Shown piece after piece: positions 3,643-19,920 of a stretch of DNA of 33,972 nucleotides (position 1 is the stretch's first letter; every line of letters begins with the position of its first letter). The position numbers were made by a program, and so were the translations under genes. The stretch spans positions 1 to 33,972 of the forward strand of contig JAPOYG010000632.1 in the NCBI GenBank assembly GCA_026706755.1. The letters are read 5' to 3'. This stretch comes from Acidobacteriota bacterium (GTDB lineage: Bacteria > Acidobacteriota > Vicinamibacteria > Vicinamibacterales > UBA8438). The notes beneath the pieces were generated by a model. That model searched no databases. It was given only the letters and a program-made list of their open reading frames with translations, and was not told the DNA's origin.

Positions 3643-5145
3643 ATGACCGCATCCGCGTTGCGCGAGGCCCGCGAGGCGACGCTTCGTCAGGCCGTCGTTC
3701 CGGTGCTGTTCCTGATCGCCCTGCTCGGGAGCTCGGTCTACCTCTTCGGCGATTCCTCGTCGTCGGGGCCCAACCAGATCGCGCTCGTCCTCTCGGCCGG
3801 CGTGGCGGCGATCATCGGCCTTGTCAACGGCCATCGGTGGACCGACCTGGAGGCGGGCATCAGCCGGGGAATCTCGGTCTCGATGGGGGCCGTGCTCATC
3901 CTGCTGGCGGTGGGGGCGCTCATCGGGACCTGGATCCTGGCGGGCGTCGTCCCCACGATGATCCACTACGGCCTGACCCTGCTCGCGCCGTCGGTCTTCT
4001 ACGCCGCCGCCTGCGTGATCTGCGCGGTGGTCGCCCTGGCGACCGGCAGCTCGTGGACGACGGCCGGCACGGTGGGCATCGCCCTCCTCGGCGTTGCGAC
4101 CGCGCAGGGGCTCCATCTCGGCCTGGCGGCCGGCGCGGTCATCTCCGGCGCGTACTTCGGCGACAAGATGTCTCCGCTGTCGGATACGACGAACCTCGCC
4201 CCCGCCGTGACGGGCACGGACCTGTTCGTTCACATCCGGCACATGCTATGGACGACCGCGCCGAGCTTCGCCGCCGCCCTCGTCCTGTTCGCGGTCGCGG
4301 GCCTGACGGCATCGGCCCCGGAGGAGACGGCCGAGCTCGCGGCGGTGCGGACGGCCCTGGCGGAGAGCTTCGTGCTCGGCCCGCACCTGCTGCTGCCCAT
4401 GGTCCTGGTGCTGGCGCTGGTGATGCGCAGGGTCCCGGCCCTGCCGGCGATGCTGATCGGCGCCCTCACGGGAGGCCTGTTCGCCGCCCTGTTCCAGCCG
4501 GAGGCCGTCCTGCGCTACGTCGGCCCGACCGAGCTTCCGCAGGGCGTCGCGCTCCTCAAGGGCGTCTGGCAGGCGCTCTACGCGGGCTACGGCCTGGAAT
4601 CGGGCAATCCGCTCATCGACGACCTGGTCTCGCGGGGCGGGATGGCGAGCATGCTGACGACGGTGTGGCTGATCCTGACGGCGATGACCTTCGGCTCGGT
4701 CCTGGAGACCACGGGCATGCTGCGCGTCCTCGCCGGACGCATGCTGGCGCGGGTGCGCGGAGCGCGCGGACTGATCCTGACCACGCTCGGCACGTCGTTC
4801 GGCATCAACGTGCTCGCGTCCGACCAGTACATCTCGATCGTGCTGCCCGGCCGCATGTTCCGGGGCGAGTACGAGCGCCGCGGCCTCGACCCGAAGAACC
4901 TCTCCCGCACCCTCGAGGACGCCGGCACGCTCACGTCGCCGCTCATTCCGTGGAACACGTGCGGCGCGTTCATGGCGACGACGCTGGGCGTCCCCACCCT
5001 CACGTATGCTCCGTTCGCCTTCTTCAATCTCCTCAGTCCGCTCGTGGCAGCGCTGTACGGCGTCCTGAACATCGCCGTCGCCCCCGTCCGGACCGCCGCC
5101 GGCGCCCCTCCCGGCGAAGGCCCGGACTCGAAGCCGCCGATATAA
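3643..5145 (+). CDS. nhaC: NhaC-family Na+/H+ antiporter
   Basis: A 500-aa polytopic inner-membrane protein with about 11-13 hydrophobic segments. The stretch GAYFGDKMSPLSDTTNLAP (around residues 169-187) is the NhaC-type signature, and a second conserved region with NVLASDQY lies in the C-terminal half. It is expected to exchange Na+ for H+ and so to govern pH and salt tolerance. It begins 12 bp after the sigma-54-type regulator, with no clear Shine-Dalgarno, so translation may be coupled. The stop lies in a TATAAT that may be the -10 box of the next gene. The length is normal for the family; substrate preference cannot be read from the sequence. Confidence 0.92.
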   Translation: MTASALREAREATLRQAVVPVLFLIALLGSSVYLFGDSSSSGPNQIALVLSAGVAAIIGLVNGHRWTDLEAGISRGISVSMGAVLILLAVGALIGTWILAGVVPTMIHYGLTLLAPSVFYAAACVICAVVALATGSSWTTAGTVGIALLGVATAQGLHLGLAAGAVISGAYFGDKMSPLSDTTNLAPAVTGTDLFVHIRHMLWTTAPSFAAALVLFAVAGLTASAPEETAELAAVRTALAESFVLGPHLLLPMVLVLALVMRRVPALPAMLIGALTGGLFAALFQPEAVLRYVGPTELPQGVALLKGVWQALYAGYGLESGNPLIDDLVSRGGMASMLTTVWLILTAMTFGSVLETTGMLRVLAGRMLARVRGARGLILTTLGTSFGINVLASDQYISIVLPGRMFRGEYERRGLDPKNLSRTLEDAGTLTSPLIPWNTCGAFMATTLGVPTLTYAPFAFFNLLSPLVAALYGVLNIAVAPVRTAAGAPPGEGPDSKPPI

Positions 5146-15031: not shown

Positions 15032-16216
15032 ATGGACCCCCTCGCCCACACGCTCGTCGGGGCGGCGCTCGCCGAGACCCGCCTCGGCTCTCTGGGCCGC
15101 ACGACGCTCGCGGGGCCGGCCCTCATCCTCGGCGCCAACGCCCCGGACATCGACGCCGTCACCATGTTCCTGGGCCGGGACGTATCGCTCGGCTTCCGGC
15201 GCGGCTGGACCCACGGGGCGCTCGCGATGGTGGTCCTGCCCCTCGTGCTGACCGGGCTCCTCCTGCTGGCGGACCGGGCGGTCGCGGCCTGGCGCGGGCG
15301 CGAGCCGCGGGCGCGGGCCGGGCCGCTCCTGGCCCTCAGCACGCTCGCGGTGCTGTCGCACCCGGCCCTCGACTGGCTGAACACCTACGGCGTGCGCTTC
15401 CTGATGCCGTTCGACGGCACCTGGTACTACGGCGACGCGCTGTTCATCGTCGACCCGTGGGTATGGCTGCTCGCGGCGACGCCGGTGGTGCTGGCGCACA
15501 GCGCCTCGCGGGTCAGCGCGGCCGGCTGGATCGTGCTCGGAATCGCCGCCACGTCGCTCATCACCGGCTTCGAGGGCGCCCCGGCCCCCGCGCGGCTGCT
15601 GTGGTGCGCCGGCGTGGCGGCCATCGTCTGGCTCCGCTTCAGCGGGCGCTGGGAGCGGCACCTGCCCCGCGTCGCGGCCGCGTGCGCCGTCGTGCTGGTG
15701 GCCTACGCGGCGGCGATGGCGGTGGCCTCCACCGCCGCGGAGCGGCAGGTCGCGGCGCTTCTTCGCGCGCGCGCCCTCCCCGGGCCGGCCGCGCCCTCCG
15801 GCCCGATCGAGGTGCTGGCCAGCCCCGCCCCGGCCAATCCGTTGCGGCGGGACATCATCGTGGCCGACGCGGCGCACTACCATTTTCTCGAGCTCGACTG
15901 GCTCGCCGATCCGCCGCTCCGCGCGGTCGGCGGATCGATCCCGCGGGGCAAGCGCGACCCGGTGGTCGAGGCGGCCCTCAGCGCGCCGCACGTCCGGGGC
16001 CTCGCCACGTGGATGCGCTTGCCCGCCTTCGACGTCGAAGTGACCGGGGACGGCTACCGGGTGTCCATTTCCGACGTCCGCTACGCCCGCCGTCCCGGGG
16101 GCGGCTTCGGCGCCACGGTCGTCGAGCTCGACCACGACCTGCGGGTGCGCGCGCCCGACGCGCGGCCGCGCCGGGCCGACGCCGGTCCGGCCGCACCGCG
16201 GACCGGAGGTGAATGA
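15032..16216 (+). CDS. YdjM/DUF457-type membrane-bound metal-dependent hydrolase family protein
   Basis: A 394-aa protein. The N-terminus MDPLAHTLVGAALAE, the NAPDIDAVTMF segment and GWTHG match the YdjM/LexA-regulated membrane family (PF04307), whose His and Asp residues are thought to bind metal. Five or six membrane helices span ~65-240, then a soluble C-terminal domain (~265-394). ATG 15032 is chosen over ATG 15023 because family members begin MDPxxH. The biochemical reaction is not established for the family. It overlaps the next gene by four bases (ATGA), so the two are probably co-translated. Confidence 0.82.
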   Translation: MDPLAHTLVGAALAETRLGSLGRTTLAGPALILGANAPDIDAVTMFLGRDVSLGFRRGWTHGALAMVVLPLVLTGLLLLADRAVAAWRGREPRARAGPLLALSTLAVLSHPALDWLNTYGVRFLMPFDGTWYYGDALFIVDPWVWLLAATPVVLAHSASRVSAAGWIVLGIAATSLITGFEGAPAPARLLWCAGVAAIVWLRFSGRWERHLPRVAAACAVVLVAYAAAMAVASTAAERQVAALLRARALPGPAAPSGPIEVLASPAPANPLRRDIIVADAAHYHFLELDWLADPPLRAVGGSIPRGKRDPVVEAALSAPHVRGLATWMRLPAFDVEVTGDGYRVSISDVRYARRPGGGFGATVVELDHDLRVRAPDARPRRADAGPAAPRTGGE

Positions 16217-17370
16217 TGACGGCTGCGCGACGGATCTCCAGGGCCGCGGCGGCCATCGCGGCGCTCTCCCTGCTCGCCTGCGCCGGCCCCGAGCGGACGG
16301 CGACCGAGGGGGCGGAGGCGCCTGGGCTCGGTTCGGCAGCCGCGGCGGAGGACGGTGCGCTCTACTTCCCACCGGCGCACGGCCCGTGGGAGACGGTGGC
16401 GCCCGCGGCGGTCGGCTGGGACCCCGCGCGCCTCGACGCCGCGCTCGCCCTGGCCGCGGACCGCGCCTCCACCGGGGTCGTGGTGCTGCACCGCGGCCGG
16501 ATCCTGGCGGAGCGCCACTGGACGCTCGACGACCCGTCTCCCGCGCACGCCAACGGCAGCCAACCCCCGACCGCCGACGGGCACGCCGTGGAGGACGTCG
16601 CGTCGGTGCAGAAGAGCGTCGTCGCGGTCCTGATCGGGATGGCGCGGGCGCGGGGCCTGCTCGACCTCGACGACCCGGTCGCGGCGCACGAGCCGGGCTG
16701 GAGCGCGGCCTCCCCCGAGCAGGAATCGGCAGTGACCCTCCGCCACCTGCTGGCGATGACGACCGGCCTGACGCCGGAGCTCGCCTTCGAGGCCGCACCC
16801 GGGACGACCTGGCGCTACAACACGCCCGCCTACCATCACCTGCTGCGCATCGTCGCCGGCGCGGCCGGCCGCGAGCCGAACGACGTGACCCGCGACTGGC
16901 TGACCGGGCCCCTGGGGATGACCGACTCCCGCTGGGAGCCGCGGCCCTGGGCGCGGGCCGCCATCGGAACGGGCTTCGTGACCACGGCCCGCGACCTCGC
17001 CCGCTTCGGCCTCCTCTTGCTGGCCGGCGGGGTCTGGCAGGGGCGGTCGATCGTGGAGGACGCCGACTACCTGGCCGAGATGCTGCGGCCGTCCCAGGCG
17101 CTCAACCCCGCCTACGGCCTGCTCTGGTGGGTCAACGGGCAGGCGTCGGCGCTCTCCTGGGCGCTGCCGCCGGTCGAGACCGCGGGGCCGCTGATTCCGT
17201 CCGCCCCGCCCGACCTGGTCGCGGCCCAGGGGGCGCGGGACCGCAAGCTCTACGTGGTGCCGAGCCTGGACCTCGTGGTGGCGCGCCTCGGCGACAACGG
17301 CTCCACCGACGCGTCCTCGTTCAACGACGCCTTCTGGTGGCTGCTCGCCCAGGCGGCACCGCGCTCCTAG
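16213..17370 (+). CDS. Lipoprotein serine hydrolase of the beta-lactamase/PBP (class C) family
   Basis: A 385-aa protein starting with a lipoprotein signal (lipobox LLAC, C23). The active-site SxxK is SVQK (S131-K134) in a context typical of PF00144, with a Tyr motif RYNTPAYHHLL near residues 200-210 and GLLWWVNGQ further on, as in esterase/6-aminohexanoate-dimer hydrolase-like members. It probably acts as an esterase, amidase or peptidase in the periplasm; it lacks features that would single out an antibiotic-degrading enzyme. The start has GGAGGT just upstream (16205-16210) and overlaps the preceding gene by four bases, indicating an operon. ATG 16216 is an equally usable start. Confidence 0.87.
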   Translation: MMTAARRISRAAAAIAALSLLACAGPERTATEGAEAPGLGSAAAAEDGALYFPPAHGPWETVAPAAVGWDPARLDAALALAADRASTGVVVLHRGRILAERHWTLDDPSPAHANGSQPPTADGHAVEDVASVQKSVVAVLIGMARARGLLDLDDPVAAHEPGWSAASPEQESAVTLRHLLAMTTGLTPELAFEAAPGTTWRYNTPAYHHLLRIVAGAAGREPNDVTRDWLTGPLGMTDSRWEPRPWARAAIGTGFVTTARDLARFGLLLLAGGVWQGRSIVEDADYLAEMLRPSQALNPAYGLLWWVNGQASALSWALPPVETAGPLIPSAPPDLVAAQGARDRKLYVVPSLDLVVARLGDNGSTDASSFNDAFWWLLAQAAPRS

Positions 17371-17434: not shown

Positions 17435-18595
17435 GTGCGAGTCGTGGCCGCAGCCGCGCTGGCCTGCCTGCTGAGCACGGCGCCAGCGTCCGCCCAGCCC
17501 CGCCTGACGATGCAGTGGCGGGCGCTGGCCGAGCGCCTGGTGGCGCAGCTCGCCCCCGAACCGGGCGAGCGAATCCTGCTCGTGGCGCGGCCCGGTCAGT
17601 TCGACGACCTGATTCCCCCCCTCCGCTACGCGCTGGCGGAGGCCGGGGCCGTCGACCTCGGGGTGGTCGACGTCATGGCCGAGCCGCACCCGGAGCACTG
17701 GGACGCCGGGCCGCTTGCACGGAGCTCGGAAGCCGCGCGCGCCCTGTGGCGCGAGATGCTCAGAGGGAGCGTCGACGGTGCCATCATGCTGCCCGGCGCC
17801 CGCCCCGATCACACCGTCTACGCGGCGCTCCAGGATCTGCTGCACGAAGGCCTCGGCAGGACCATCCACTTCCACTGGACCCAGAACGGCAGCGCCTTCC
17901 CGGTGCCCGGCCAGCCCATGCCGAGCCCGGCGGCGGTCGACGCGACGTACCAGCGCGCCGTCCTCGAGACCGATTACGCCGCGCTGGCGGCGGCGCAGGA
18001 CCGTTTCGTCGCGGCGCTGCGCGCGTCCGAGGTGCGCGTGACGACGCCGTCCGGCACCGACATCCGCTTCCGCATCGGCGACCGCCCGGTCAACCTCGGC
18101 AACGGCGACGCGTCGAAGGCGCGGACGGATCGGGGCGTGATCCTGATCGACCGCGAGATCGAGCTGCCCGCCGGGGCCATCCGGGTAGCGCCGGTCGAGG
18201 AGACGGTGCACGGCACCATCGTCTTCCCCCCCTCGCAATGGGACGGCCGGCCGGTCGCGGACCTCGCCCTCACGTTCGAGCGCGGCCGCATCACCGGCGT
18301 CCGGGCGTCGTCCGGGCAGGCCGCGGCGGAGGCGGAGTTGGCCGGCGTCCCGGACGAGGCGCGCGCCTTCCGGGAGTTCGCCCTCGGCTTCAACCCGCTT
18401 CTCGCGGTTCCCGAGCGGAACCCCTGGATCCCGTACTACGGGTACGGCGCCGGCGTGGTGCGCCTCTCGCTGGGCGACAACTCGGAACTCGGCGGGCAGG
18501 TGGCGGGCGGCTACGTCCGCTGGAACTTCTTCACCGACACCACCGTGACCGTGGGCGGCGAAGTCTGGGTGCGCGACGGGCGACTCGTCAGGTAG
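17435..18595 (+). CDS. Secreted aminopeptidase M29-like protein with altered metal ligands
   Basis: A 386-aa protein with a Sec signal peptide (~1-21, ASA-Q). The body resembles thermophilic metallo-aminopeptidases (M29, AmpS/AmpT): TPSGTDIRFRIGDRPV, ELPAGAIRVAPVEETVHG, FERGRITGV and FREFALGFNPLL. Two metal-binding glutamates appear kept (E255, E314). The next ligands do not: the usual HIALGDN is RLSLGDN (R343) and the usual VHWDF is VRWNF (R362, N364). Both His and the Asp are therefore replaced, and a dinuclear peptidase site cannot form as known. Being secreted is also unusual for M29, which is normally cytosolic. It may be a binding or repurposed protein. It stands 20 bp before the phosphofructokinase gene. 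Confidence 0.75.
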   Translation: MRVVAAAALACLLSTAPASAQPRLTMQWRALAERLVAQLAPEPGERILLVARPGQFDDLIPPLRYALAEAGAVDLGVVDVMAEPHPEHWDAGPLARSSEAARALWREMLRGSVDGAIMLPGARPDHTVYAALQDLLHEGLGRTIHFHWTQNGSAFPVPGQPMPSPAAVDATYQRAVLETDYAALAAAQDRFVAALRASEVRVTTPSGTDIRFRIGDRPVNLGNGDASKARTDRGVILIDREIELPAGAIRVAPVEETVHGTIVFPPSQWDGRPVADLALTFERGRITGVRASSGQAAAEAELAGVPDEARAFREFALGFNPLLAVPERNPWIPYYGYGAGVVRLSLGDNSELGGQVAGGYVRWNFFTDTTVTVGGEVWVRDGRLVR

Positions 18596-18615: not shown

Positions 18616-19920
18616 ATGGCCCATCACGGCAAGCTCGGCATCCTCGCCGCCGGAGGGCCGGCGCCGGGCATCAACAGCGTCATCAGCGCCGCGACGATCC
18701 GGAGCCGCCTGGAGCACGTCGACGTGGTCGGGATCCGCGACGGCTTCGAGTGGATCATGCGCGGCGACATCGATCACGTCACCCCGCTCGACATCGACGG
18801 GGTGAGCCGCATCCACTTCCGCGGCGGCTCGCAGATCGGCATCTCGCGGGCCAATCCGACCCGCAGCCCGGAACACCTCGAGAACACGATCGTCTCGCTC
18901 CTGCGCCTCGACGTGACCCAGCTCATCACGATCGGCGGGGACGACACCGCCTACACGGCCATGAAGCTGGCCGAGCGGAGCGAAGGGCGCCTGCGCGTCG
19001 TCCACGTCCCGAAGACGATCGACAACGACCTCGACCTGCCGCCCTACGTCGACACCTTCGGCTTCGCCACCGCGCGCCACTACGGGGTGGAGATCGTCAA
19101 GAACCTGATGGTCGACGGCAAGACCACCTCGCGCTGGTACTTCGTGATCGCGATGGGGCGCAAGGCCGGACACCTGGCCCTCGGGATCGGCAAGGCCGCC
19201 GGCGCCACGCTGACGCTCATCCTGGAGGAATTCGCCGACCACCGGATCCGACTCAAGTCCCTGGTCGACACGCTGACCGGCGCAATCATCAAGAGGCTCA
19301 ACCAGGGCCGCCGGGACGGCGTCGCCATCCTCGCCGAGGGGGTCGTGCTGGGGATCGATCCGGAGGATCTGGCGGGCCTCGACGACGTGGAGCGCGACAG
19401 CCACGGCAACGTCCGGATTGCCGAGGTGAACATCGGGGAGATCCTGAAGGAGCAGGTGCAGGCGAGGCTCAGGACGCTCGGGCTCTCGCCCACCCTCGTC
19501 GCCAAGAACATCGGTTACGAGCTGCGCTGCGCCGACCCGATCCCCTCCGACCTGGAGTACACGCGCGACCTCGGCTACTGCGCGGCGCGCTACGTGATGG
19601 CGGGCGGGAGCGCGGCGATGATCTCCATGCAGGGCGGCCGCTTCGTGCCGATTCCGTTCGAGCGGATGGTGGACGCCGAGACGGGGCGCGCGCGCGTCCG
19701 CCTGGTCGACGTCCACTCGACGCGCTACCGGATTGCGCGCCGCTACATGCTGCGCCTGCGCCGCGACGACTTCGAGGAGCCGCACGAGCTGGCGAAGCTC
19801 GCCGCCTGCGTCGGCCTCTCCCCGGACGAGTTCCGCCGCGAGTTCGAGTACCTCGTGGCCCAGGAACCGCCCCCCCTCGAGCTCGATCTCGCGCAGGGCT
19901 TCACCCTCGGCGGGGCGTGA
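18616..19920 (+). CDS. pfp: 6-phosphofructokinase, probably pyrophosphate-dependent
   Basis: A 434-aa glycolytic enzyme phosphorylating fructose 6-phosphate. Motifs in order: GGPAPGIN near the N-terminus, GGDDT (residues 107-111), PKTIDND (132-138), AMGRKAGHLA and a C-terminal substrate region. ATP-dependent enzymes usually have GGDGS and PGTIDND; Asp in GGDD and Lys in PKTIDND are the known marks of the PPi-dependent type, which can also run in reverse. ATG 18616 lacks a clear Shine-Dalgarno. The TGA overlaps a possible GTG start of the next gene. The ATP/PPi assignment comes from motif knowledge and is not tested here. Confidence 0.9.
   Translation: MAHHGKLGILAAGGPAPGINSVISAATIRSRLEHVDVVGIRDGFEWIMRGDIDHVTPLDIDGVSRIHFRGGSQIGISRANPTRSPEHLENTIVSLLRLDVTQLITIGGDDTAYTAMKLAERSEGRLRVVHVPKTIDNDLDLPPYVDTFGFATARHYGVEIVKNLMVDGKTTSRWYFVIAMGRKAGHLALGIGKAAGATLTLILEEFADHRIRLKSLVDTLTGAIIKRLNQGRRDGVAILAEGVVLGIDPEDLAGLDDVERDSHGNVRIAEVNIGEILKEQVQARLRTLGLSPTLVAKNIGYELRCADPIPSDLEYTRDLGYCAARYVMAGGSAAMISMQGGRFVPIPFERMVDAETGRARVRLVDVHSTRYRIARRYMLRLRRDDFEEPHELAKLAACVGLSPDEFRREFEYLVAQEPPPLELDLAQGFTLGGA

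Follow-up and report, generated by a model that had tools for sequence, protein, structure and literature searches.

The window analyzed here comprises positions 1 to 33,972 of contig JAPOYG010000632.1, from an Acidobacteriota genome of the order Vicinamibacterales. It contains a gene for a 386-aa protein whose closest flanking genes lie within a few dozen bases on either side (Table 1). The reading frame of this gene is open throughout, as the first-pass annotation of this DNA had stated, and the hydrophobic leader of its product ends in ...APASAQ as read from the sequence. The same annotation had called the product secreted, which is supported by the leaders and lipoboxes of its orthologues. 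Among 77 orthologues scanned for leaders, 17 were classified as carrying a lipobox and 29 an AxA-type leader, and 31 were left unclassified by what is a crude rule, many of the latter having a leader visible by eye. A leader and an SxxK motif can also be seen by eye in the upstream beta-lactamase-family protein.

Table 1. Features of the window and codons at the remodelled site (positions of the whole window)
Feature	Position	Strand	Remark
Sigma-54 activator (PF00158, Fis-type HTH), 949 aa	781-3630		
Na+/H+ antiporter family protein	3643-5145		close behind the sigma-54 activator
Beta-lactamase-family protein (PF00144, 114 bits)	16213-17370	+	same strand as the 17435-18595 ORF; ends 64 bases upstream of it
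Predicted metal-less secreted protein of M29/NicX fold	17435..18595	+	386-aa ORF, GTG start, stop 18593-18595
Predicted leader peptide MRVVAAAALACLLSTAPASAQ	17435..17497	+	residues 1-21; cleavage place inferred by eye
Ala248 codon	18176..18178	+	aligned with the first Glu ligand of M29 (E250 LmAmpII, E253 AmpS)
Arg250 codon	18182..18184	+	canonical Phe place; two residues past the lost Glu, same strand
Glu314 codon	18374..18376	+	sole M29 metal ligand kept (E316 LmAmpII; bridging E319 AmpS)
Arg343 codon	18461..18463	+	place of His345 (LmAmpII)
Ser350 codon	18482..18484	+	place of catalytic Tyr352 (LmAmpII)
Arg362 codon	18518..18520	+	place of His378 (LmAmpII)
Asn364 codon	18524..18526	+	place of Asp380 (LmAmpII)
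Phosphofructokinase (PF00365)	18616-19917		begins 20 bases downstream of the 17435-18595 ORF stop

Peptidase_M29 (PF02073) was the sole Pfam match of the 386-aa protein (31.2 bits; cut-off 27), and this match is local, covering residues 191-319. No family was assigned by NCBIfam and PHROGs searches, and a single-sequence search against the PDB returned just two weak matches, both to unrelated proteins. When the source assembly (713 contigs) was searched with PF02073, only this gene was matched, and thus no canonical M29 paralogue was found alongside it. A profile built from 24 orthologues gave weak PDB matches to AmpT (E 0.0034), PepS (0.01) and AmpS (0.2), the AmpT alignment keeping register between the first and the second ligand Glu.

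An AlphaFold2 model based on a 66-row alignment (pLDDT 93.6, pTM 0.88) was then compared with solved structures. By VIA-align, the closest fold is that of the 2,5-dihydroxypyridine dioxygenase NicX (7cup_E; Z 26.7, rmsd 3.6, 304 aligned residues, 15% identity), and the M29 structures score Z 22.5-23.4, including AmpT (Z 23.4, rmsd 3.9, 331 aligned), PepS 4icq (Z 23.2, rmsd 4.4, 330 aligned) and AmpS (Z 22.7, rmsd 4.6, 330 aligned). Two M29-related proteins of crocagin biosynthesis, CgnE (6zsu; Z 12.5, rmsd 5.2, 258 aligned) and CgnB (6zsv; Z 11.9, rmsd 5.6, 241 aligned), lie well below both. Foldseek returned the same four top proteins with TM-scores of just 0.57-0.60 on the whole query chain, so the domains may sit at a different angle. 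The annotated M29 likeness therefore stands as a distant relationship to the M29/NicX fold, given the PF02073 score above cut-off and the VIA-align matches.

In canonical M29 peptidases, three carboxylates, two His and a weakly placed Tyr surround two metal ions, and Ala at any of E250, E316, H345, Y352, H378 and D380 abolishes the activity of Listeria AmpII (LmAmpII), according to the available portion of PMC7023490. The profile of 66 orthologues was aligned with canonical M29 sequences by hhalign (99.4%, E 4e-21), and these six residues correspond to A248, E314, R343, S350, R362 and N364 in the 386-aa protein. MAFFT alignments agree in placing R343 (in the motif VVRLSLGDN) on H345, and R362 and N364 (in YVRWNF) on H378 and D380, which bears out the replacement of His/His/Asp by Arg/Arg/Asn originally proposed. 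Two further claims, that both glutamates remain and that all other motifs are preserved, do not hold: the column of the first ligand Glu, which is the second E of LPTEE or the E of LPxGEVFTAP in canonical sequences, contains Ala248, leaving just the second, E314; Ser350 takes the place of the catalytic Tyr; and YYG replaces the canonical FDE ahead of the His strand. E255 (in PVEETV) was considered as an intact counterpart of E250 and rejected, since it falls outside the ligand column and some members have S, L or V there.

Compared with the M29 peptidases (PF02073; AmpT 2ayi, PepS 4icq/4ics/4icr, AmpS 1zjc), the protein thus shares the whole-length fold and the bridging Glu, whereas it has lost four of the five metal ligands (E/E/H/H/D) and five of the six catalytic residues, including the Tyr, and has three new Arg, a leader peptide and a 16-column insertion before the ELPAG strand. 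Because a Glu and the Tyr have been lost and a third Arg (R250) gained, the site is a remodelled one, and the protein is more than an intact metalloenzyme with three residues swapped. By homology, the three Arg side chains would converge on one cavity.

These residues are highly conserved within the family, and R250, E314, R343 and R362 occur in all complete family rows examined. In an alignment comparison of 87 family rows with 60 canonical rows, R250, E314, R343, R362 and N364 are each present in 100% of the former, and the same columns of the latter contain F (93%), E, H, H and D (100% each). The comparison leaves out the non-canonical loci L123-L128, L130, L133, L134, L137, L138, L140, L198-L204, L206-L209, L234 and L235; L197, which contains N; the deeper-branching L027-L030 and L121; and the remaining family loci L001-L026, L111-L120, L122, L172-L175 and L205. 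Among 80 loci retrieved with peptide patterns, counted per covered site, R250 is found in 80/80, E314 in 79/79, R343 in 79/79, R362 in 77/77 and N364 in 77/77. These loci are 80 of 171 relatives. The patterns include R250, R362 and N364, so the counts for these three residues are biased; E314 and R343 are absent from the patterns. The column of residue 248 contains A in 66 of these loci, V in 10 and S in four. According to record titles, the 80 loci belong to Acidobacteria (some of them Vicinamibacterales), Gemmatimonadetes, Bacteroidetes, Marinimicrobia and Gammaproteobacteria, the last comprising Woeseiaceae and Chromatocurvus halotolerans. A further set of 42 loci, which overlaps the first in species and includes the window (L001, L113) and other genomes twice, has R250 in 41/41, E314, R343 and R362 each in 40/40, and N364 in 34/40 covered sites (five Leu, one Phe).

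Because of the retrieval bias, searches with the whole protein and with profiles, neither of which uses the patterns, were added. The whole-protein search matched 47 of the 100 genomes of relatives, 31 of them strongly (>180 bits), and most strong matches are uninterrupted frames. Among matches without a locus, those in G090, G004 and G015 were read and weak ones below 35 bits were left out; E314, R343, R362 and N364 are present on the end pieces from G004 and G015. One family relative, L026 (G017), has its frame in two overlapping pieces, likely an assembly error or a broken copy. Profile searches gave matches in 89 of 396 genomes of the window's phylum (12 >280 bits), in 50 of 200 Gemmatimonadetes, the phylum of L082 (23 >300 bits and six at 165-180 bits), in 109 of 395 genomes of the phylum of L087 (two >540 bits), and in three of 274 genomes of the class of L067, where the one match >540 bits is L067's own genome. 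The remaining matches are weak, and those read are other M29-like groups. All five residues are found in 21 of the 21 loci (L176-L196) obtained from Gemmatimonadetes by the pattern-free profile, and also in L205.

The check originally suggested, an alignment of orthologues at the three sites, yielded no close orthologue with His/His/Asp, a combination absent from every family row examined. Nor is a sequence error at these codons borne out, since the residues recur in many separate assemblies. All six Arg codons are used at sites 250, 343 and 362. NG86 dN/dS between the window gene and four relatives is 0.14-0.20 (dN and dS of 0.018/0.126, 0.069/0.470, 0.119/0.597 and 0.201/1.320). Neutral decay, or an annotation or sequence artefact, of an ordinary M29 peptidase might be suggested by the loss of four of five ligands and by the split frame of L026; however, the fixation over several phyla, the synonymous Arg codons, the low dN/dS and the predominance of uninterrupted frames among strong matches make it extremely improbable. 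The view that the Arg/Arg/Asn replacement is a selected change rather than decay, put forward in the first-pass annotation, is strongly supported. Conservation also extends beyond the cluster: 51 columns are invariant in 66 rows whose identity to the window protein falls to 46%, among them H145, Y181, D239, E241, E243, Y334 and Y337, and H147 is conserved in at least 90%.

In a maximum-likelihood tree of 37 sequences, 16 family members with both Arg are monophyletic (UFBoot 100) and separate from canonical M29. A deeper branch (L027-L030 and L121) has Leu or Phe at residue 364. Relatives of a sister type (L198-L203, and L236 from the window's own order), which are outside the tree, keep R250, E314, R343 and PYYGYG in 7/7, and have the R362/N364 segment replaced by NRSSNGEVLLF-like sequences (RSPGGPLWLF in L236); a Pfam search with L198 gave nothing at E 0.01. 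Since these relatives keep the first three residues without R362/N364, R250/E314/R343 looks like an older core of the new site, with R362/N364 a later addition or separately lost, and the sister-type proteins are possible intermediates.

Members of this fold are known to have changed or abandoned their metal chemistry. The Fe(II) ligands of NicX (7cn3, 7cup), the closest solved fold, are His265, Ser302, His318 and Asp320, as given in the available part of PMC7910607. The columns that appear to match His265, His318 and Asp320 hold E314, R362 and N364 in the 386-aa protein; thus, the NicX Fe ligands are probably absent. CgnE is a relative of M29 aminopeptidases with a disrupted metal site and no metal density that binds the peptide CgnA with a KD of 1.8 uM, and CgnB appears to be catalytic, as reported in the accessible part of PMC10070186. 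The fold of these proteins is M29-related, and the metal site of CgnE has been lost as well; however, its ligand changes described in that part are two (Glu to Lys and His to Tyr), unlike the set found here. CgnE also works together with CgnC, within a RiPP cluster; the 386-aa protein, by contrast, has a leader peptide, and no recurrent partner was seen among 106 nearest neighbours in the family loci, going by the 25 commonest of 106 Pfam families.

Taken with the conservation pattern, the reading that we favor, with somewhat better than even confidence, is that of a secreted, metal-free protein of the M29/NicX fold, in which an Arg cluster has taken the place of the di-metal cage and holds the anionic group of a ligand. 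The protein would be periplasmic, or lipid-anchored in many Bacteroidetes. With three Arg, one Glu and one Asn at the ancestral site, plausibly no metal is bound there, and the protein would not be an M29 aminopeptidase. R250, R343 and R362, together with N364 outside the deeper branch, are fixed around the retained E314, so that the former acidic cage, in which two M2+ ions were held by three carboxylates and two His, would have become a net-cationic guanidinium cluster supplying the positive field once given by the metals. In one conserved small ligand or peptide, a carboxylate, carbonyl or other anionic or oxo group may be what this cluster holds within the interdomain cleft, which H145, W148, Y181, Y334 and Y337 may also line. 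As CgnE, whose M29-related fold lost its metal, binds a peptide, we think by analogy that the protein mainly serves to bind a specific ligand, probably a peptide or carboxylate. Against such a role, neither a ligand nor a partner gene nor a conserved neighbour across loci supports the predicted binding, and the 51 invariant columns fit an enzyme as well as a binder; the Leu or Phe at 364 in the deeper branch and the relatives without R362/N364 also count against this reading.

The main rival to ligand binding is metal-free catalysis, in which the Arg cluster, E314 and nearby His and Tyr residues would polarise a carbonyl or stabilise an oxyanion. The putative reaction, a hydrolysis or one of the lyase or isomerase type, would take place in the periplasm on a carboxylated substrate. 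The invariant H145, Y181, D239, E241, E243, Y334 and Y337 are potential acid/base residues, and the fold has switched chemistry before, as in NicX (Fe dioxygenase; available part of PMC7910607) and CgnB (accessible part of PMC10070186). Given the loss of the canonical catalytic Tyr, and with no known reaction, substrate or pathway neighbour, we regard this as possible and on balance doubtful. In its broader form, a set of secreted metal-free enzymes across phyla in which three Arg round the old bridging Glu replace two catalytic metals and a carboxylated substrate, perhaps a peptide, undergoes a new chemistry in the periplasm, it is advanced here as a tentative and rather unlikely proposal.

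The same invariant residues could alternatively form a relocated metal site, made of H145-x-H147 in the N-terminal domain and D239/E241/E243 of a family-specific insertion, with the arginines as substrate binders of a new metalloenzyme. The segment with D239 and E241 does correspond to a gap or to variable sequence in canonical M29, but L021 has Arg at position 147, and we consider a relocated site improbable. A structural pseudo-enzyme, whose surface binds another protein and whose Arg/Glu cluster is just an internal salt bridge holding the fold in the absence of metal, is also quite improbable: three Arg and one Glu could pair mutually, and the site can matter for folding, since restoring metal binding in CgnE or disrupting it in CgnB gave insoluble protein (accessible part of PMC10070186); however, the invariance reaches aromatic and polar residues beyond the cluster, more than folding seems to need. 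In all, the gene is unlikely to be explained by decay, by sequence error or by ordinary M29 activity, and specific ligand binding by the Arg cluster remains our preferred one.

The gene behaves as a stand-alone unit. A conserved operon was rejected by ORF clustering of the 80 loci and the window, in which no neighbour cluster occurred in more than 13 of 81 loci, with frames overlapping the gene itself set aside and a recount made for the eight largest clusters. The 106 nearest neighbours in 56 of the 80 loci, picked by a length and GC rule without a gene finder and skipping neighbours >900 aa, have Beta-lactamase (PF00144, five members) as the top Pfam family. The phosphofructokinase is found again at 94-99% identity in L031, L032 and L033, and L032, L033 and L037 have the beta-lactamase-family protein (73-93% identity), with weaker matches to the latter (22-25% identity) in five other loci; for so common a family, this recurrence is only a slight hint. 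Carriage on mobile elements was also rejected, as plasmids and viral contigs yielded no full-length relative. Among 72,556 plasmid records, 11 were matched, with identity below 60% throughout and less than 80% of the query covered in each case, and the ten listed comprise nine annotated aminopeptidases and one without annotation. In viral contigs, one of two short patterns was hit in 16 stretches, of which none codes for a relative.

The family is thus real, selected and kept over several phyla, and it is a variant within a known superfamily rather than a canonical peptidase. No report of an inactive M29 branch like this was found in the open-access literature searched, and print may hold one; the papers listed by one of the searches contain no M29 term, and a term search of the available part of the review PMC11266112 found no mention of M29. 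Since its Pfam label is that of a thermophilic metalloprotease, the protein may have been included where secreted peptidases were counted in Acidobacteria, Gemmatimonadetes and Bacteroidetes of soil and sea, and if our reading is true, the family protein is not a peptidase. It would then represent a natural experiment in which arginines replaced a di-metal centre in a kept fold across several phyla. L067, an ortholog of 61% identity, comes from the deposited strain Chromatocurvus halotolerans DSM 23344, so that its function is directly testable.

Besides this family, more M29-like groups with altered metal-ligand columns were observed (L123-L128, L206-L209 and L234), with motifs such as GMVTIGIGQAP and FSFxDxGxNP. 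The first Glu is kept in L123-L128, of which L123, L124, L126 and L127 show a leader or lipobox on inspection by eye. Metal loss may be common in exported proteins of the M29 fold. In four other loci (L130, L133, L134 and L138), the first-Glu column holds Ala and the E314 column His (NLPFGAISFTVPE, ISHxGIGVNP); they resemble the NicX ligand pattern, but have Asn-x-Asp at the place of NicX His318-x-Asp320.
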